From an uncultured Colwellia sp. (GTDB taxonomy: Bacteria; Pseudomonadota; Gammaproteobacteria; Enterobacterales; Alteromonadaceae): DNA of 64,000 nt. A model generated the notes under the pieces. That model was not told the DNA's origin and ran no database searches. It was given only the letters and a program-made list of their open reading frames with translations. Numbering within the stretch: the first letter of the stretch is position 1; each line of letters opens with the position of its first letter. Positions 43,536-49,854 of the stretch are shown here, one piece after another. The stretch lies in NCBI GenBank assembly GCA_913062815.1, contig CAJXWZ010000024.1, positions 1 through 64,000 on the forward strand. The letters run 5' to 3'. Both the position numbers and the translations under genes were made by a program.

Positions 43536-45278
43536 CTACTGCGCCAATTGATGTTTCACCTTAGGTAAAACATCAATTGCGGTAGTGTTTTTTGGGTCCA
43601 ACTTCAATACCGACTCCAACCACGGTAGTGCTTGCTGCAACTTTCCTTGCGATAAATAGGCATGACTTAAGGCGAGTTGATAATTAATCTCTCCTTCATT
43701 AATTTCAATCGCCCTTTTTAAGTACCTAGGCGCTTGGTTAAACTTTTTAGCTTGAATAAGTGCAACGCCCGCTCTATAACTATGCTTTGCATCAAAAGGC
43801 ATCGCATCCGCTAGTAATTTGGCTGACTTTAGATATAACGGCTTATCATGCTTTTTGCCATAGTTTAGGTTTTCTGTTGCTATTGTTAACCACCCTATCT
43901 GACTTTTATATGCCGATAGCCCTAAACGATCACTAGGCGTTTTTGCTACAGGTAACTGTACTTTTTGCGGTGTGTCGGTAAAGGGATAATCAGCCATTAA
44001 CCCAGCAATTTTTGCTTTACCCCAATAAACTTCAGCATCAAATACTGGCATATCTTGCTGGGCTGCTGCAGTAGTGACTAAAGCAGGGAATGCACCAAAA
44101 ACCGCTGACTGTGCCAATGCTTTATAAAAACTATCCGCAATAACAAAATAACCATTAATGGTGGGATGTAGATGCTCTAGCATTAATGATTTACCAATAA
44201 CACCCTGCTCGGCTGCACCTGTTAACGCTTTATTAGCATCGACAAAATGTACGCCATCATTTTTCGACAACAAGCGAATAACATCATTCATTGCACTGGG
44301 CGCTCTAAAACGTAATAAGTCGTAATCTCTGGCTTTTATTAAGGCTTGCTTAGCTTGGTTATGTTTTGCCTGAGCTAACAATTTTTGACCTTGCTGATAG
44401 TAAAGATCAGCACTGTGCTCACTTATTGATGCTTCGCTAGAAAAAGGCGCTTGATCCGCCAAGTTGCTGGCAATAGTACTAATAAATACCGGTATACCTG
44501 CCGCTTGATACTTTGCAATGACCAGAGCAATATTATTTTCAAATTGCGCCAAGCCAGCATGATACAAATCAGAGTCATAGGGGATGTTTTTATGCTTGGC
44601 TACCTTTGACATAAACGTACGTGAACGCTGGGCATTGTCAGGAATTTTCGATTTAGTAAACTGCCAGTAAATATTTTGCAGTAATTGAAAAATCCTGGCA
44701 TTTTTAAGCTTTAAATAAAGTAGTGTTGCTGCAGCAGAATTAGCCGCAGTGTAAGCAGAGCCAACGCCTAATATACCTAGATATTCATTATGGCCAGCAT
44801 AAATTAAAACCGCATCAGGTTGTTGTTCAATAATTTCATCAACAAAATCTAAAACGGTATAACTATTTACCGCGGCTAATGCAGTATTAATAACTTCTAC
44901 CGTTTTCTCTGGAAAGCTCTGCTTTAATCGATAATCAAGCATGCCGGCTATGGAAGCGCCATAGCCAAAAGGGAAACCCGCCGCAGTTGAGCCCCCTTGT
45001 ACAACGATGCGTAAGCCATCTGCAGGTTTATGCTTTAAAAAAAAGTTAGTTTCTATAGTTACCGTAGGTGCAACGGCATCTTCTGGAAAATAGCGTTTAA
45101 CCACATCAGGGCGAGGTAATAAGTATTGAGGGGCAGTAGCATGTTCTTTCGCTGGATAATCCATAAAAAGTGGTATTTCTCTACCATAATCAAACAGGCG
45201 TAGGCCGCCTTCTAATAGCGCAAAAAATGCAAAAGGTATGGCTAAAGTGATCACTAAATAAACTTTATTTTTTGTCAT
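43536..45278 (-). CDS. membrane-anchored SGNH/GDSL hydrolase with TPR tail (paralogue 2)
   Basis: 580 residues: an N-terminal membrane anchor (VYLVITLAIPFAFFALLEGG), then an SGNH esterase domain with block I QGGSTAAGFP (nucleophile Ser), block III YAGHNEYLG, and a late ExxH motif (LEHLHPTINGYF) in place of the usual DxxH. The C-terminal TPR-like repeats (FNQAPRYLKRAIEINEGEINYQLALSHAYL, LQQALPWLESVLKLDPKN) may bind partners. It starts 9 bases after a paralogous gene, and both face the carbamoyltransferase unit. Target probably an ester or carbamoyl/acyl-decorated glycan (inference). Confidence 0.85.
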   Translation of the reverse strand: MTKNKVYLVITLAIPFAFFALLEGGLRLFDYGREIPLFMDYPAKEHATAPQYLLPRPDVVKRYFPEDAVAPTVTIETNFFLKHKPADGLRIVVQGGSTAAGFPFGYGASIAGMLDYRLKQSFPEKTVEVINTALAAVNSYTVLDFVDEIIEQQPDAVLIYAGHNEYLGILGVGSAYTAANSAAATLLYLKLKNARIFQLLQNIYWQFTKSKIPDNAQRSRTFMSKVAKHKNIPYDSDLYHAGLAQFENNIALVIAKYQAAGIPVFISTIASNLADQAPFSSEASISEHSADLYYQQGQKLLAQAKHNQAKQALIKARDYDLLRFRAPSAMNDVIRLLSKNDGVHFVDANKALTGAAEQGVIGKSLMLEHLHPTINGYFVIADSFYKALAQSAVFGAFPALVTTAAAQQDMPVFDAEVYWGKAKIAGLMADYPFTDTPQKVQLPVAKTPSDRLGLSAYKSQIGWLTIATENLNYGKKHDKPLYLKSAKLLADAMPFDAKHSYRAGVALIQAKKFNQAPRYLKRAIEINEGEINYQLALSHAYLSQGKLQQALPWLESVLKLDPKNTTAIDVLPKVKHQLAQ

Positions 45279-45287
45279 GAACGGCTC

Positions 45288-47171
45288 TTAATTTAGTAAG
45301 GAGGCTGACTTAGCTGCAGCTTGCTTAACATTAGCGATATACTGCGCAATACGTTGTTTTTGCCCAGGTGTTGCAGTGACTACGTTATTCGCTTTTCCCA
45401 AAACTAATAAGCTTTTCTGGTAACTTTCTAGTAAAAAATAATCTTGGGCTAATGCCAGTAAATACGACACATTTTCACCTTGCTGATGCACCGCTTTACT
45501 ATGATAATAACTTGCTAATTGCCAATCATTGAGCTGCTGGTATAACTGCCCAGCGATATAGGATGACCTATGATTATCTACCATGGCTGTACTAATCGCT
45601 CCTGCTATTTTCGCCGCTTGTGGGATCTCATTTCGTTGTTGATACTTAACCAATAAATCTTGTTGAATAGACAGCCAATTAGCATTTTCTAAGCGTTTTA
45701 TCAGGGCTTGCTTTTCAAATTTTCTACTAGCAGGCAGCGACACGCTCTCACTCCCTGGGTTCAATTCACTGGTAAAAGGAAAATCATTCATTAATTTACG
45801 CACCACAAAATCACCATAGAGTTTATCAACAACACTAACGGGAATATCTGCTCTGGCTTGGTGCCTAGTTACCTGCTGCTGCGGTGTGCTTACTGCTTCT
45901 TTACTGATAAGGTTATTACTAATAATTAACTCTGCATAAGCTTCAGCTAATAAAAAATAACCTTCAACGGTCGGATGTAAGTGTTCAAGAATAAGTTTAT
46001 TACCAATAATGCCATGAGCAGAATTAGCCTCAAAAAATGCTTGTGTATTGACCAAATCAACATCGTACTCTTTTGCTAAGCTCTCTATAACCCCATTTAA
46101 TTCACTCGGTGCTCTAAAGCGTAACAAGTCATTATCTTTAGCCTGCACAAAGGCTTGTTTAGCCTCTTTATAACGAGCTAACATCGCGAAATTGAGCGCA
46201 AGTTGGTAATAGTTTTCTGCGTTTTCTTCTTTTTTAAGTAAAGACTTTATTCGTACAACTTCGGCTTTTGCGCTAGCTTTAGTTAGACTATTTCTAACTG
46301 CTAGCCAATCTGTTTTTTCTACGCTAGAAAACGGAATTTGACCACTTTCATTGCTGACCAAATTTCCTAACATGACCTTAATACCAGCCTTACGATATTT
46401 AGATAGTATTAGTGACATATTGCCTTTAAATTGTTCAATGCCTTGTTGGTATAAATTGCTGTCTAAAACGATCTCCTTTTCCCTAGCAACTTTCGACATT
46501 AAGGTTTTATTCGCCTTACTGGGTTGCTCCTTTGGGGCAAAAGCAAAGTAGTATGCTTGTTGCAGCAATTGATAAAGCCGCCAACCTTTAAATTTAAGAT
46601 GCATTAAGGTTGCTAAACGGCCACCTTTGGCAGCAAAGGCACTCCCTACGCCCATCACACCTAAATATTCATTGTGCCCTGCATAAATTAATACCAAATC
46701 TGGTTGTTGCTCAATAATTTCTTCAACAAAATCGAGCAAGGTATAACTGTTTACAGCCGCCATTGCGGTATTGATTATTTCAATTTTTTTATTGGGATAA
46801 AGTCGCTTGAAGCGCTGCTCAAGCATACCTTGTAGAGAGCCCCATCGCCCATAAGGAAAACCAGCCGCGGTTGAGCCACCTTGCACAAAAATTCTAAAGG
46901 TATCCTGACTCTTCTCTTTGGTGAAATATACTGTGTCAGGGCTGACATTAGGTGCCAAGCTTTCATTGGCAAAGTAACGATTGATCACCTCAGGATTAGG
47001 TTGTAAAAATGTACTTGGCGCATTATTTATTGAGGGCTTATCAATAAACAATGGGTATTCTCTACCGAACGAACTCATGCGCAATACAAGTTCAAGCAAT
47101 AATAGAATAACAAAGGGAATAGCGATCAAGATGAGATAAAAGCTCAGCTGCTTAGTAGATATTTTTGACAC
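45288..47171 (-). CDS. membrane-anchored SGNH/GDSL hydrolase with TPR tail (paralogue 1)
   Basis: 627 residues with the same layout as the next gene: a membrane anchor (YLILIAIPFVILLLLELVLR), QGGSTAAGFPYG, VYAGHNEYLG-like YAGHNEYLGVMG, and LEHLHPTVEGYFLLA with Glu replacing the usual catalytic Asp. The C-terminal part has TPR-like helices (WQLASYYHSKAVHQQGENVSYLLALAQDYF). The pair arose by duplication. A LacI-type palindrome is 80 bases upstream, and a carbamoyltransferase gene diverges 231 bases away, so they likely share control. Confidence 0.85.
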   Translation of the reverse strand: MSKISTKQLSFYLILIAIPFVILLLLELVLRMSSFGREYPLFIDKPSINNAPSTFLQPNPEVINRYFANESLAPNVSPDTVYFTKEKSQDTFRIFVQGGSTAAGFPYGRWGSLQGMLEQRFKRLYPNKKIEIINTAMAAVNSYTLLDFVEEIIEQQPDLVLIYAGHNEYLGVMGVGSAFAAKGGRLATLMHLKFKGWRLYQLLQQAYYFAFAPKEQPSKANKTLMSKVAREKEIVLDSNLYQQGIEQFKGNMSLILSKYRKAGIKVMLGNLVSNESGQIPFSSVEKTDWLAVRNSLTKASAKAEVVRIKSLLKKEENAENYYQLALNFAMLARYKEAKQAFVQAKDNDLLRFRAPSELNGVIESLAKEYDVDLVNTQAFFEANSAHGIIGNKLILEHLHPTVEGYFLLAEAYAELIISNNLISKEAVSTPQQQVTRHQARADIPVSVVDKLYGDFVVRKLMNDFPFTSELNPGSESVSLPASRKFEKQALIKRLENANWLSIQQDLLVKYQQRNEIPQAAKIAGAISTAMVDNHRSSYIAGQLYQQLNDWQLASYYHSKAVHQQGENVSYLLALAQDYFLLESYQKSLLVLGKANNVVTATPGQKQRIAQYIANVKQAAAKSASLLN

Positions 47172-47250
47172 CGAAATAATTGCTCACTTACCTATTTTAC
47201 CAATGGTAAAACCCTACGCCACAGCCTGTAACTTTGCAAGATAAAGTCCA

Positions 47251-47266
47251 TTGAATACGTTTGCAA
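47251..47266. promoter_or_regulatory. LacI-type palindrome upstream of the SGNH pair
   Basis: TTGAATACGTTTGCAA, an imperfect CG-centred palindrome, 80 bases before SGNH paralogue 1 and 137 before the carbamoyltransferase ATG. It matches the pullulanase sites in core and arms. Confidence 0.55.
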
Positions 47267-47402
47267 CGCATGGCTTTTACCATTTTTTTATGCCTATAAT
47301 CGAAGACAATAATATATAAAAGAGCTCAGGGATAATTCCCCACTATAGTTAACGTATAGATAACACGTAATAGTAGGCTCATAATTAAAATTGAAGTCAG
47401 TT

Positions 47403-49262
47403 ATGACCACCAAAATACTTGGTATCTCAGCTTTTTATCATGATAGTGCCGCAGCAATTGTTGTGGACGGAAAAATAATTGCTGCGGCACAAGAAGAACG
47501 TTTTACTCGAAAGAAGCATGATCCGGAATTTCCCGCCCATGCGATCTTATTTTGTCTCGCACAAGCAAAGTGTGACATTAGCGATTTAGACAGTATTATC
47601 TTTTACGACAAACCCTTATTAAAGTTTGAACGACTGCTCGAAACTTACTTTGCTCACGCGCCCAGAGGCATTCGCTCTTTTATTCGCGCTATGCCCATTT
47701 GGCTTAAAGAAAAGCTCTATCTGAAAAGTGTTTTAAGGCGCGAGTTGAGATTACTTGCCGGCCTAGATAAAAAGGCTAAATTACCCCAATTGCTTTTTAG
47801 CGAACATCATTTATCACACGCAGGCTCCGCCTTTTTTCCAAGCCCTTATAATGATGCCGCTGTGCTTTGTTTAGACGGTGTCGGAGAATGGGCAACATCT
47901 TCAGCCTGGCAAGGCAGAGATGATAAACTTTCCCCTTTATGGGAAATTCAATTCCCTCATTCCTTAGGACTGCTATATTCAGCATTCACCTACTATGCTG
48001 GCTTTAAAGTGAATTCTGGTGAGTATAAGTTAATGGGGTTGGCACCATTTGGTGAGCCTAAATATGTTGATACCATCTTCGAGCATTTAATTGAAGTGAA
48101 AGCAGACGGTAGCTTTGTGCTTGATATGTCTTATTTTGATTTTGCTATTGGTAGCACCATGACCAATACTAAGTTTCATCAACTGTTTGCCGGCAAACCA
48201 CGTGCTGGCGAGTCTGAAATATCACAAAAAGAGATGGATTTAGCCCGTTCGATTCAAGTTGTTACTGAAGAGATTGTACTTAAAATAGTGCAACACCTGT
48301 CAACGTTAACCACCAGCAAAAACTTATGCCTTGCTGGCGGCGTAGCACTTAATTGTGTTGCTAATGGTCGTATTTTACGTGAAGGGGCATTTGAAAACAT
48401 TTGGATTCAACCTGCTGCCGGCGATGCCGGTGGAGCTTTAGGTGCAGCTTTAGTTGCATGGCACCACTACTATGACGGAAAAAAGTCTCAACCAAACGGC
48501 TTAGATGACAGCAAGCAAGAAGATTTAATGCAAGGCGCATATCTTGGCCCGAGTTATACCAACGAGGAAATTAGCCAGATATTACAAGCAAAAAAATTGC
48601 CTTTTACCCAATTAAGCGATGTCGATTTAAATAGTAAAACGGCGGAATTACTCGACCAAGAACATGTGATTGGTTGGTTTCAAGGTAAAATGGAGTTTGG
48701 CCCCAGAGCTTTGGGCAATCGCTCCATTTTGGGTGATGCTCGAAATCAAAAAATGCAATCAGTGATGAATTTAAAAATTAAATATCGCGAGTCTTTTCGT
48801 CCTTTTGCTCCTATTGTTTTAGCAGAAGATGTCAGTGACTATTTTCAACATCAAGGCTCAAGTCCCTATATGCTGATAGTTGCTGACATTAATGACCAGT
48901 TGAAATTACCCGTAACGGAAGGACTGCAAGGCATTGAAAAGTTAAATCAAGCCCGTTCAACGTTACCCGCAATTACCCATGTTGATTACACCGCACGCTT
49001 GCAAACCGTTCATCAAGAAACCAACCCTAAATTACACCAGTTGCTCAACACTTTTAAATCTCGCACGAATAGTAGCGTGCTAATAAACACCTCTTTTAAT
49101 GTACGAGGCGAGCCGCCAGTATGCTCCCCAGAAGATGCCATTAACTGCTTTTTAAATACTGAAATGGATTACTTGGTGATGGAAAACATTATGTTATGTA
49201 AATCAGAGCAAAGTGAAGCGGCTATTGCTCTAGCTAAACAAAATCAATTTGAGTTAGATTAA
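47403..49262 (+). CDS. carbamoyltransferase (NodU/TobZ/SxtI family)
   Basis: 619 residues. ATG 47403 is used, as MTTKILGISAFYHDSAAAIV is the usual start, rather than TTG 47391. Visible: metal/phosphate motif SEHHLSHAGSAFF, CLDGVGEWATSS, and the C-terminal ATP-binding domain with GPRALGNRSILGDAR and RESFRPFAP. The family makes carbamoyl-adenylate from carbamoyl phosphate and passes the carbamoyl group to hydroxyls of sugars or natural products. It starts a tight unit with SxtJ-like and DUF5989 genes. No scaffold-making genes are present, so the acceptor is probably a cell-surface glycan or a compound made elsewhere. Confidence 0.93.
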   Translation: MTTKILGISAFYHDSAAAIVVDGKIIAAAQEERFTRKKHDPEFPAHAILFCLAQAKCDISDLDSIIFYDKPLLKFERLLETYFAHAPRGIRSFIRAMPIWLKEKLYLKSVLRRELRLLAGLDKKAKLPQLLFSEHHLSHAGSAFFPSPYNDAAVLCLDGVGEWATSSAWQGRDDKLSPLWEIQFPHSLGLLYSAFTYYAGFKVNSGEYKLMGLAPFGEPKYVDTIFEHLIEVKADGSFVLDMSYFDFAIGSTMTNTKFHQLFAGKPRAGESEISQKEMDLARSIQVVTEEIVLKIVQHLSTLTTSKNLCLAGGVALNCVANGRILREGAFENIWIQPAAGDAGGALGAALVAWHHYYDGKKSQPNGLDDSKQEDLMQGAYLGPSYTNEEISQILQAKKLPFTQLSDVDLNSKTAELLDQEHVIGWFQGKMEFGPRALGNRSILGDARNQKMQSVMNLKIKYRESFRPFAPIVLAEDVSDYFQHQGSSPYMLIVADINDQLKLPVTEGLQGIEKLNQARSTLPAITHVDYTARLQTVHQETNPKLHQLLNTFKSRTNSSVLINTSFNVRGEPPVCSPEDAINCFLNTEMDYLVMENIMLCKSEQSEAAIALAKQNQFELD

Positions 49263-49264
49263 TT

Positions 49265-49669
49265 ATGCAGCATGCCAAACAAGCAATAACCAATAAAACA
49301 CTGAAAGAATTTGGCCTACTAATGGTGTGGGCTTTCCCTTTATTTATTGGTGTCATCGCACCGTGGATTTTTGATAAAGGTATACAGTGGTGGACACTTA
49401 TTGTCAGTGCTGTATTCCTTGTATTGGCGTTACTTGCACCTAAATTAATCTACTTCCCTTTTCGCGCTTGGATGTTTGTTGCCGGTATTATTGGCTTTAT
49501 TAACACTCGGCTAATTTTAGGCTTAACTTTTTACTTGCTCTTTTTTCCAATAGGAATGATTTTAAGAACATGCAATAAACTACAGTTTAAGAAGCAAAAC
49601 AATGGCTGTTCAAACTACGTAAAGCGAACAGAAAAATTAACTAAAGAACAGTTGGAGAATCCGTTTTAA
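49265..49669 (+). CDS. SxtJ-family membrane protein
   Basis: 134 residues with three to four hydrophobic segments (LLMVWAFPLFIGVIAPWIF, WWTLIVSAVFLVLALLAP, GIIGFINTRLILGL, TFYLLFFPIGMIL) and a charged cytosolic tail. It resembles SxtJ, a protein of unknown function found next to carbamoyltransferases, including the saxitoxin carbamoyltransferase SxtI. It starts 2 bases after the carbamoyltransferase stop and overlaps the next gene by one base, so co-translation is very likely. It may anchor or present the enzyme at the membrane (inference). Confidence 0.85.
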   Translation: MQHAKQAITNKTLKEFGLLMVWAFPLFIGVIAPWIFDKGIQWWTLIVSAVFLVLALLAPKLIYFPFRAWMFVAGIIGFINTRLILGLTFYLLFFPIGMILRTCNKLQFKKQNNGCSNYVKRTEKLTKEQLENPF

Positions 49670-49821
49670 TGATTGAATTTATAACCGACCTATGGGCATT
49701 TTTACGGGTACGTAAAAAGATGTGGTTACTGCCTATTATTATCATATTAAGTTTACTCGGTGGTTTAGTGGTCGCCTCTCAGCAATCTGCCTTAGCAACA
49801 TTTATTTATACTTTATTTTAA
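49669..49821 (+). CDS. DUF5989 small membrane protein (SxtK-like)
   Basis: 50 residues: MIEFITDLWAFLRVRKKMWL then PIIIILSLLGGLVVASQQSA and a FIYTLF end. This WAFLRxRKKxWLLP motif plus one membrane helix defines DUF5989, typically the third gene of carbamoyltransferase-SxtJ-DUF5989 units. Its ATG overlaps the sxtJ stop (TAATG), giving translational coupling. It is too short for most automatic gene callers. Its size and position fit the small sxtK gene of saxitoxin clusters, though I cannot verify the relation here. Confidence 0.85.
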   Translation: MIEFITDLWAFLRVRKKMWLLPIIIILSLLGGLVVASQQSALATFIYTLF

Positions 49822-49831
49822 AATAAAAAGC

Positions 49832-49854
49832 GGGGCATGGATTAACCATGCCCC
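49832..49854 (+). terminator. GC-rich hairpin after the carbamoyltransferase unit
   Basis: GGGGCATGG (49832-49840) pairs perfectly with CCATGCCCC (49846-49854), loop ATTAA, 10 bases after the DUF5989 stop. The T-run is poor on the plus strand and better on the minus strand. Confidence 0.6.

Follow-up and report, generated by a model that had tools for sequence, protein, structure and literature searches.

Several systems that acylate the bacterial envelope use a C-terminal FxYxxF motif, which has been described as an 'acyl shuttle' (PMC12148441). In PatA the tyrosine of the motif is auto-acetylated and hands its acetyl group to the SGNH protein PatB (NgPatA ends in FIYANF), and in PatB the Gly of block II is also replaced; in the Dlt pathway the motif is supplied between DltB and DltD by a microprotein, DltX (PMC12148441), the tail of which is FLYFGF (PMC11035591). 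The other described neighbour is the saxitoxin cluster, with sxtI (1839 bp), sxtJ (405 bp), sxtK (165 bp) and sxtL (1281 bp) (PMC2679770); sxtJ,K,L-like genes are also grouped in the suomilide cluster (PMC10157211), and a 2010 review states that no homologue of sxtJ or sxtK had been functionally characterized (PMC2885083). Here, we analyse a locus from an uncultured Colwellia sp., located in a stretch of 64,000 nucleotides (contig CAJXWZ010000024.1, positions 1 to 64,000; the whole stretch is hereafter called the window). It consists of two minus-strand genes for SGNH proteins, followed by plus-strand genes for a carbamoyltransferase, an SxtJ family protein and a DUF5989 microprotein. The DUF5989 protein ends exactly in FIYTLF, a clue missed by the earlier annotation of this stretch (the original prediction). 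We see about an even chance that the locus encodes an MBOAT-free carbamoyl relay, in which a carbamoyl group would pass from the carbamoyltransferase to the tyrosine of DUF5989, then to the serine of an SGNH protein and from there to an acceptor. The features of the locus are as follows.

43536..45278, minus strand: SGNH protein 1 (580 aa), with an N-terminal membrane anchor and a C-terminal TPR domain; motifs GGST in block I (Ser97), Ala136 in place of the Gly of block II, AGHNE in block III and EHLHP in block V
45288..47171, minus strand: SGNH protein 2 (627 aa), with Ser100, an N-terminal anchor formed by the hydrophobic segment 12-30, an SGNH core at about 90-420 and a C-terminal helical TPR-like array
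47172..47390, no strand: divergent intergenic region of 219 bp that separates the SGNH pair from the trio
47391..49262, plus strand: O-carbamoyltransferase of the NodU/TobZ superfamily, from the subfamily tied to DUF5989/SxtJ
49265..49669, plus strand: SxtJ family membrane protein (134 aa; PF19588, 67.3 bits)
49669..49821, plus strand: DUF5989 membrane microprotein (50 aa; PF19451, 83.6 bits), with one transmembrane segment at about residues 18-36
49801..49818, plus strand: hexapeptide FIYTLF, an FxYxxF motif, at the C-terminus of DUF5989; the Tyr47 codon is at 49807-49809 and the stop codon follows immediately after the hexapeptide
49832..49854, no strand: stem-loop just 3' of the trio (9 pairs, 7 of them G-C)

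The conservation of this tail was followed across 141 loci, namely 60 stretches from a survey of the phylum and from the window's genus, 80 named loci from a DUF5989-anchored scan and the window stretch itself; the same contig occurs twice in three cases (L070/L128, L116/L183 and L119/L201). A tyrosine stands at position -4 in all 139 DUF5989 open reading frames (ORFs) of these loci, and 130 of them end in FxYxxF. It should be noted that peptide patterns, including one for the DUF5989 C-terminus, were the means by which 80 of the 141 loci were detected, and that these are the best 80 of 538 confirmed matches. More weight is therefore given to the 59 ORFs found with the Pfam model only, since part of the remainder was found with a pattern that covers the tail: in this set the tyrosine is present in 59/59 and FxYxxF in 51/59, the other eight tails being FIYTLY, LIYTLF, LIYTMF or YIYAMF. 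As a background, these loci contain 1686 other gene-like ORFs, of which four end in FxYxxF; they are three MBOATs and one glycosyltransferase, so that a tail scan blind to function recovered known users of the motif. The tails of these MBOATs (for example RKMNKLFLTVTIVFFWLIVVAASTGSSQEFIYFDF) are built like DUF5989, with basic residues, one hydrophobic segment, a short linker and FIYxxF. Among 12,668 short ORFs (38-130 aa), a single one that is not DUF5989 carries an FxYxxF tail.

The carbamoyltransferase, SxtJ and DUF5989 form a real and widespread module. Of 398 genomes surveyed in the phylum, 47 have SxtJ and 58 have DUF5989, and the named carriers extend over Colwellia, Alteromonas, Alishewanella, Ruegeria, Pelagibacteraceae (to which many of the named loci belong), Magnetospirillum, Nitrospira and Omnitrophota as well as Desulfobulbus, Syntrophobacteraceae, cyanobacteria, Saprospiraceae, Krumholzibacteriia and others. 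DUF5989 has at least 8000 matches in a set of 5.8 billion proteins (our database protein set comprises the best 120 of these) and SxtJ at least 669. Within 3 kb and on the same strand of a DUF5989 or SxtJ anchor, we found the carbamoyltransferase in 133, SxtJ in 127 and both in 125 of 140 loci (L118, without an anchor, is excluded, and L075 is labelled 'cb-du-sj' only for want of DUF5989). The commonest gene order is SxtJ-DUF5989-carbamoyltransferase (93 loci), and the window's order, carbamoyltransferase-SxtJ-DUF5989, is found in 28. With all three genes in 125/140 loci from many lineages, the trio is the general, membrane-linked module around a carbamoyltransferase that the original prediction had supposed it to be, and the neighbourhood survey found recurrent linkage of SxtJ/DUF5989 with both carbamoyltransferase and SGNH genes. 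Closer to home, SxtJ is present in five of the 37 genomes of the window's genus, its own included; the module is patchy there. All five of these genomes show the divergent layout of SGNH genes and trio, which argues that the arrangement is not due to chance; one SGNH gene is cut by a contig end in G003 and one is broken in G023. In the latter genome (L071:3905-5743) a stop interrupts one of the two SGNH genes.

A natural fusion provides a further link. In two genomes of one genus (L124 and L125), one host of which is named Magnetococcales, the carbamoyltransferase and SxtJ form a single protein of 738 aa; the two are therefore physically tied, and the N-terminus of SxtJ would lie on the side of the carbamoyltransferase, presumably the cytosol. 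A search for further fusions of this kind had L124 itself as its sole match. A PDB search with DUF5989 and SxtJ gave nothing beyond weak matches, of the kind expected by chance, to membrane proteins such as DsbB. The C-terminal residue of SxtJ is a Phe (in QF or PF) in all 119 proteins examined (P0127-P0245), which makes it a further conserved C-terminus.

The window's carbamoyltransferase belongs to a distinct subfamily tied to DUF5989/SxtJ. We compared PF02543 matches in the 61 genomes with a clear match to SxtJ or DUF5989, 38 of which come from one class; four genomes with weak or broken matches (G052, G155, G181 and G308) stand outside this set. The matches listed, all of at least 60 bits, form two score groups, one at 285 bits or more (64 matches) and the other at about 65 to 220 bits (63 matches). 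Among them, 61/64 high-scoring matches lie within 3 kb of DUF5989/SxtJ, compared with 2/63 of the lower-scoring group. The two linked lower-scoring matches are part of a gene split between contigs in G133 and part of an SGNH fusion in G159. The three high-scoring copies without DUF5989/SxtJ nearby are those of G133, where the gene is split over contigs, of G126, where the carbamoyltransferase and SxtJ-DUF5989 are on separate contigs, and of contig C13 of G081 (locus L208, discussed below). Solved sequences in the PDB that match the carbamoyltransferase number 12 (E-values from 1.4e-87 to 1.2e-64) and include TobZ, GdmN and the novobiocin carbamoyltransferase. Like these enzymes, NodU and WapO, the window's enzyme is a two-domain carbamoyltransferase; its own mark is membership of the high-scoring, DUF5989/SxtJ-tied subfamily.

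Some loci combine these families in other ways. The G159 fusion (L075:10299-13505) is a single ORF that joins an SGNH domain to a carbamoyltransferase-like domain lacking HHLSHA, and it is convergent with the carbamoyltransferase-SxtJ pair. A second, divergent carbamoyltransferase (524 aa in L167) overlaps or closely trails an SGNH gene in L167 (L167:12033-14959), L173 and L198, both genes standing downstream of SxtJ-DUF5989-carbamoyltransferase. DUF5989 is accompanied by a lower-scoring carbamoyltransferase and no SxtJ in L139:8199-10153, and in L073 and L174 by an SGNH gene with no carbamoyltransferase in reach, the DUF5989 of L174 being at a contig end.

SGNH genes recur beside the trio, in agreement with the original prediction. 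In a tally of 20 representative loci, six of which have the window's layout, PF13472 was found in 21/80 near genes (two genes on each side) and in at most 2/79 far genes (five or more positions away), after neighbour genes shorter than 100 aa or cut by the locus ends had been dropped. In the 61 genomes, 14 among the 150 PF13472 matches listed are no more than 6 kb away from the module, where a rough mean genome size would predict about 0.46. Using a profile seeded with module-linked SGNH proteins, we found an SGNH gene within 5 kb in 55 of the 85 loci with full flanks (17/19 with the window's order and 35/63 with the commonest order), and 42 of the 50 carbamoyltransferase groups at 75% identity have an SGNH gene in some member. 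The strand and position of the linked SGNH genes vary. Nearly all of their products carry an N-terminal hydrophobic segment (97 of 101 linked ORFs, within the first 200 residues); for the 79 with a single segment in the first 60 residues, charge indicates N-in for 64 and N-out for five, with ten ties. Judging from this charge pattern, the SGNH catalytic domain is predicted to face outward. In the window's lineage, the Gly of block II is replaced by Ala or Ser in all 21 scorable SGNH copies. Finally, at the fusion locus L125, an SGNH-like protein without the catalytic Ser and His (L125:8670-9863) adjoins DUF5989, and a second gene matching the SGNH profile stands on the opposite side.

The module seems not to require an MBOAT, as far as genome content can tell. 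No PF03062 match was found in 24 of the 61 genomes, including 18/43 of good quality and 4/6 single-contig genomes, one of these four being G159, itself without DUF5989; this search covered MBOATs and not AT3 acyltransferases. The window's own genome has one MBOAT, on a different contig. An MBOAT is near the module in three of the 141 loci (L083, L085 and L153), as counted with a profile seeded with those three. Since the carbamoyltransferase nearly always adjoins DUF5989 and an MBOAT is absent from many genomes, the carbamoyltransferase would be the natural donor for the DUF5989 tail.

The relay that we propose would then proceed as follows. The chemistry of the carbamoyltransferase family runs through a carbamoyl-adenylate, which the cytosolic enzyme would make from carbamoyl phosphate and ATP. 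SxtJ and DUF5989 would form a membrane platform on which the carbamoyltransferase is seated, and the enzyme may load the invariant Tyr47 in the FxYxxF tail of DUF5989, either instead of a final acceptor or before one. The resulting O-carbamoyl-tyrosine would in turn carbamoylate the catalytic serine of the membrane-anchored, outward-facing SGNH protein. This chemistry is plausible, as O-carbamoyl-tyrosine belongs to the aryl carbamates, which are classic carbamoylating agents for serine hydrolases. The SGNH protein would finally pass the carbamoyl group to an alcohol group of an acceptor that is extracytoplasmic or exported, a step modelled by analogy on DltB-DltX-DltD, which handles D-alanine, and on PatA-PatB, which handles acetyl. 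The 'de-esterification' of the original prediction is revised accordingly in one half: the FxYxxF tail suggests that the SGNH protein receives and transfers carbamoyl, whereas hydrolysis retains the support of the loci outside the window's lineage, in which 65 of 79 module-linked SGNH proteins keep the hydrolase-like Gly of block II.

That count is also among the observations that weigh against the relay. SxtJ has no nearly invariant His of the MBOAT kind in our alignment, which leaves unexplained how a cytosolic enzyme would reach a tyrosine at the outer face. No SGNH gene lies inside 5 kb, by the seeded profile, in 30 of the 85 loci with full flanks. The AlphaFold model of SGNH protein 2 (predicted local distance difference test score 91.3, predicted template-modelling score 0.92) has esterases as its nearest solved structures; apart from one TPR domain, its best 50 structural matches consist largely of esterases, lipases and thioesterases of the SGNH kind, and PatB is not among them. 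Nor are AlgX and DltD, but these absences exclude nothing, and structure was set aside as an arbiter between hydrolase and transferase. Six DUF5989 proteins gave no match to the DltX family PF12459 in Pfam, under filters that drop most matches above an E-value of about 0.1. Genome G159 (L075) has a carbamoyltransferase and SxtJ, but DUF5989 was not matched there and no short ORF near them carries the tail.

The last point of this kind comes from locus L208 (L208:3868-7083). Here, an ORF of 107 aa lies 22 bp downstream of a carbamoyltransferase of the subfamily, which has an overlapping SGNH gene upstream; the ORF ends in TLSPFIYVMF, and the DUF5989 profile scores it over these last ten residues only. 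This tail protein has no transmembrane segment, and neither has the SGNH protein in its first 150 residues; membrane crossing therefore cannot be universal. On its sequence, L208 is apparently a soluble version of the module that has retained the tail, and in this respect the exception speaks for the relay. The tail protein was found in one of 48 genomes of its class, its own, and this genome carries a normal trio elsewhere.

The relay has to be weighed against simpler uses of the same proteins. SxtJ and DUF5989 could just anchor the carbamoyltransferase, which would act directly on a lipid-linked or membrane-bound precursor, with the SGNH protein later removing the carbamoyl or an acyl group. 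We regard this as somewhat unlikely, with the following points in its favour: the 12 solved relatives of the enzyme are named for small-molecule acceptors or unspecifically, the canonical Gly of block II prevails outside the window's lineage, and a proposal already in print ties SxtJ and SxtK, together with SxtI, to carbamoyl transfer and SxtL to decarbamoylation (PMC2679770, PMC2885083). It leaves unexplained, however, both the invariant tyrosine in the terminal FxYxxF of a microprotein with a single transmembrane segment and the unrelated tail protein of L208. The latter also bears on the idea that DUF5989 and SxtJ serve assembly or stability, with the aromatic C-terminus as a membrane-interface anchor or as a non-covalent docking peptide. 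The tail is indeed hydrophobic and follows a transmembrane segment, and the N-terminal half of DUF5989 contains a Trp and a Pro that vary no more than the Tyr; yet the tail matches, in sequence and in position, a motif of proven covalent function that ends just four of 1686 other ORFs, three of them MBOATs, and the L208 protein retains it without a transmembrane segment. We consider this explanation distinctly improbable.

Very unlikely, in our view, is a tail that shuttles an acyl group supplied by an unlinked MBOAT or other acyltransferase, with the carbamoyltransferase modifying the same product in parallel. In its favour, L083, L085 and L153 have MBOATs with FxYxxF tails near the module, and genes matching the SGNH profile adjoin an MBOAT in L210 and lie within 4 kb of one in L211. 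Against this stand the 24 of 61 genomes with no MBOAT match, and the fact that DUF5989 adjoins this subfamily of carbamoyltransferases and is seldom near MBOATs.

By analogy, the module would work like the Dlt and PatA-PatB systems, yet it is not a member of either as defined, because the MBOAT is missing and no homology with DltX was found. With Dlt it shares donor activation in the cytosol, a membrane microprotein ending in FxYxxF (FLYFGF in DltX, FIYTLF in DUF5989) and a single-pass partner of the SGNH family (PMC12148441, PMC11035591). It differs from Dlt in that many carriers have no MBOAT, the presumed donor is the carbamoyltransferase, no carrier protein was identified and the DltX profile finds no match in DUF5989; homology of DUF5989 with DltX was looked for and not found, PF12459 having no match in the window's own genome and no place in the filtered Pfam matches of those six DUF5989 proteins. 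With PatA-PatB, and also with the alginate and cellulose systems, the likeness lies in a C-terminal FxYxxF that feeds, or here would feed, an SGNH transferase and, for PatB, in the replaced Gly of block II, as in the SGNH proteins of the window's lineage (PMC12148441). Here the presumed donor would be carbamoyl phosphate/ATP instead of acetyl-CoA, a separate microprotein carries the tail, and most module-linked SGNH proteins elsewhere retain the Gly that PatB has lost.

The parallel drawn by the original prediction with sxtI-J-K-L fits the published sizes, order and annotation (PMC2679770, PMC10157211, PMC2684587, PMC2885083), which are the basis on which the same four protein types are recognized in both. 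The window differs from the saxitoxin cluster in that its SGNH-TPR genes are divergent and duplicated; in another locus, L203, the order is carbamoyltransferase-SxtJ-DUF5989-SGNH, as in sxtI-J-K-L. From the size and place of the gene, we infer that sxtK encodes a DUF5989 protein.

Taken more generally, we hold with moderate confidence that these loci encode an MBOAT-independent 'carbamoyl shuttle', in which an ATP-driven O-carbamoyltransferase would load the DUF5989 tyrosine and an SGNH transferase would accept the aryl carbamate. On this view, MBOATs (for acetyl and D-alanine) and carbamoyltransferases would share the FxYxxF tail as an interchangeable swinging arm, in membrane and soluble (L208) versions, and the saxitoxin-type unknowns would be a platform and its arm. 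If this is true, two small proteins found repeatedly in many bacteria, and also in a toxin cluster, are explained, carbamate joins the groups moved by FxYxxF tails, and such a tail works without an MBOAT; it also suggests that the SGNH genes in such clusters are open to being read as transferases. A covalent role for Tyr47 would give the open annotation of DUF5989 one named, testable residue. In our literature search, which mostly covered papers outside subscription and was judged by titles and abstracts, no description of a carbamoyl shuttle appeared among the papers listed, and DUF5989 was named in none of the papers searched.

As for the acceptor, the original prediction favoured a surface glycan, which the neighbourhoods do not bear out: glycosyltransferases are not commoner near the module (PF00534 in 4/80 near vs 4/79 far genes and PF00535 in 2/80 vs 4/79), and most of the ten neighbouring proteins examined in Pelagibacteraceae loci have metabolic functions. 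A glycosyltransferase is nearby in L159, a single-locus exception. A surface-glycan acceptor was not adopted, since glycosyltransferases are not enriched beside the module. O-Carbamoyl is found on the core heptose of Pseudomonas lipopolysaccharide, where it is credited to a putative enzyme, WapO (PMC8005017).

Returning to the window, ORF coordinates and Pfam place the five ORFs and assign them to the families named by the original prediction. PF13472 is found in both minus-strand SGNH proteins, and the carbamoyltransferase (47391-49262) matches PF02543 with 362.5 bits and PF16861 with 239.9 bits, both above the curated cut-offs. It carries the motifs HHLSHA (139) and EFGPRALGNRS (435), which we take to be catalytic; its listed start is TTG, with an in-frame ATG at 47403, and no transmembrane segment was found in it. 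The tight coupling of the trio, by a 2-base gap and then a TAATG overlap, was verified in the sequence. As to the description of both SGNH proteins as TPR proteins, Pfam scores a TPR in protein 1 and none in protein 2, but the C-terminal helical array in the predicted structure of protein 2 aligns to a solved TPR domain. Around the locus, the nearest genes encode an S9 peptidase, two unnamed ORFs, a methylglyoxal synthase and a class II aldolase, and no scaffold gene is among these five flanking proteins. The stem-loop at 49832..49854 is predicted, from a consensus match, to be terminator-like on the minus strand only. Lastly, a second cluster in L208 (L208:9146-11738) comprises a tail-less MBOAT-like ORF, a 55-aa ORF with one hydrophobic segment that ends in FLYGRF and then an SGNH gene, which looks like the DltB-DltX-DltD order in a Gram-negative genome.

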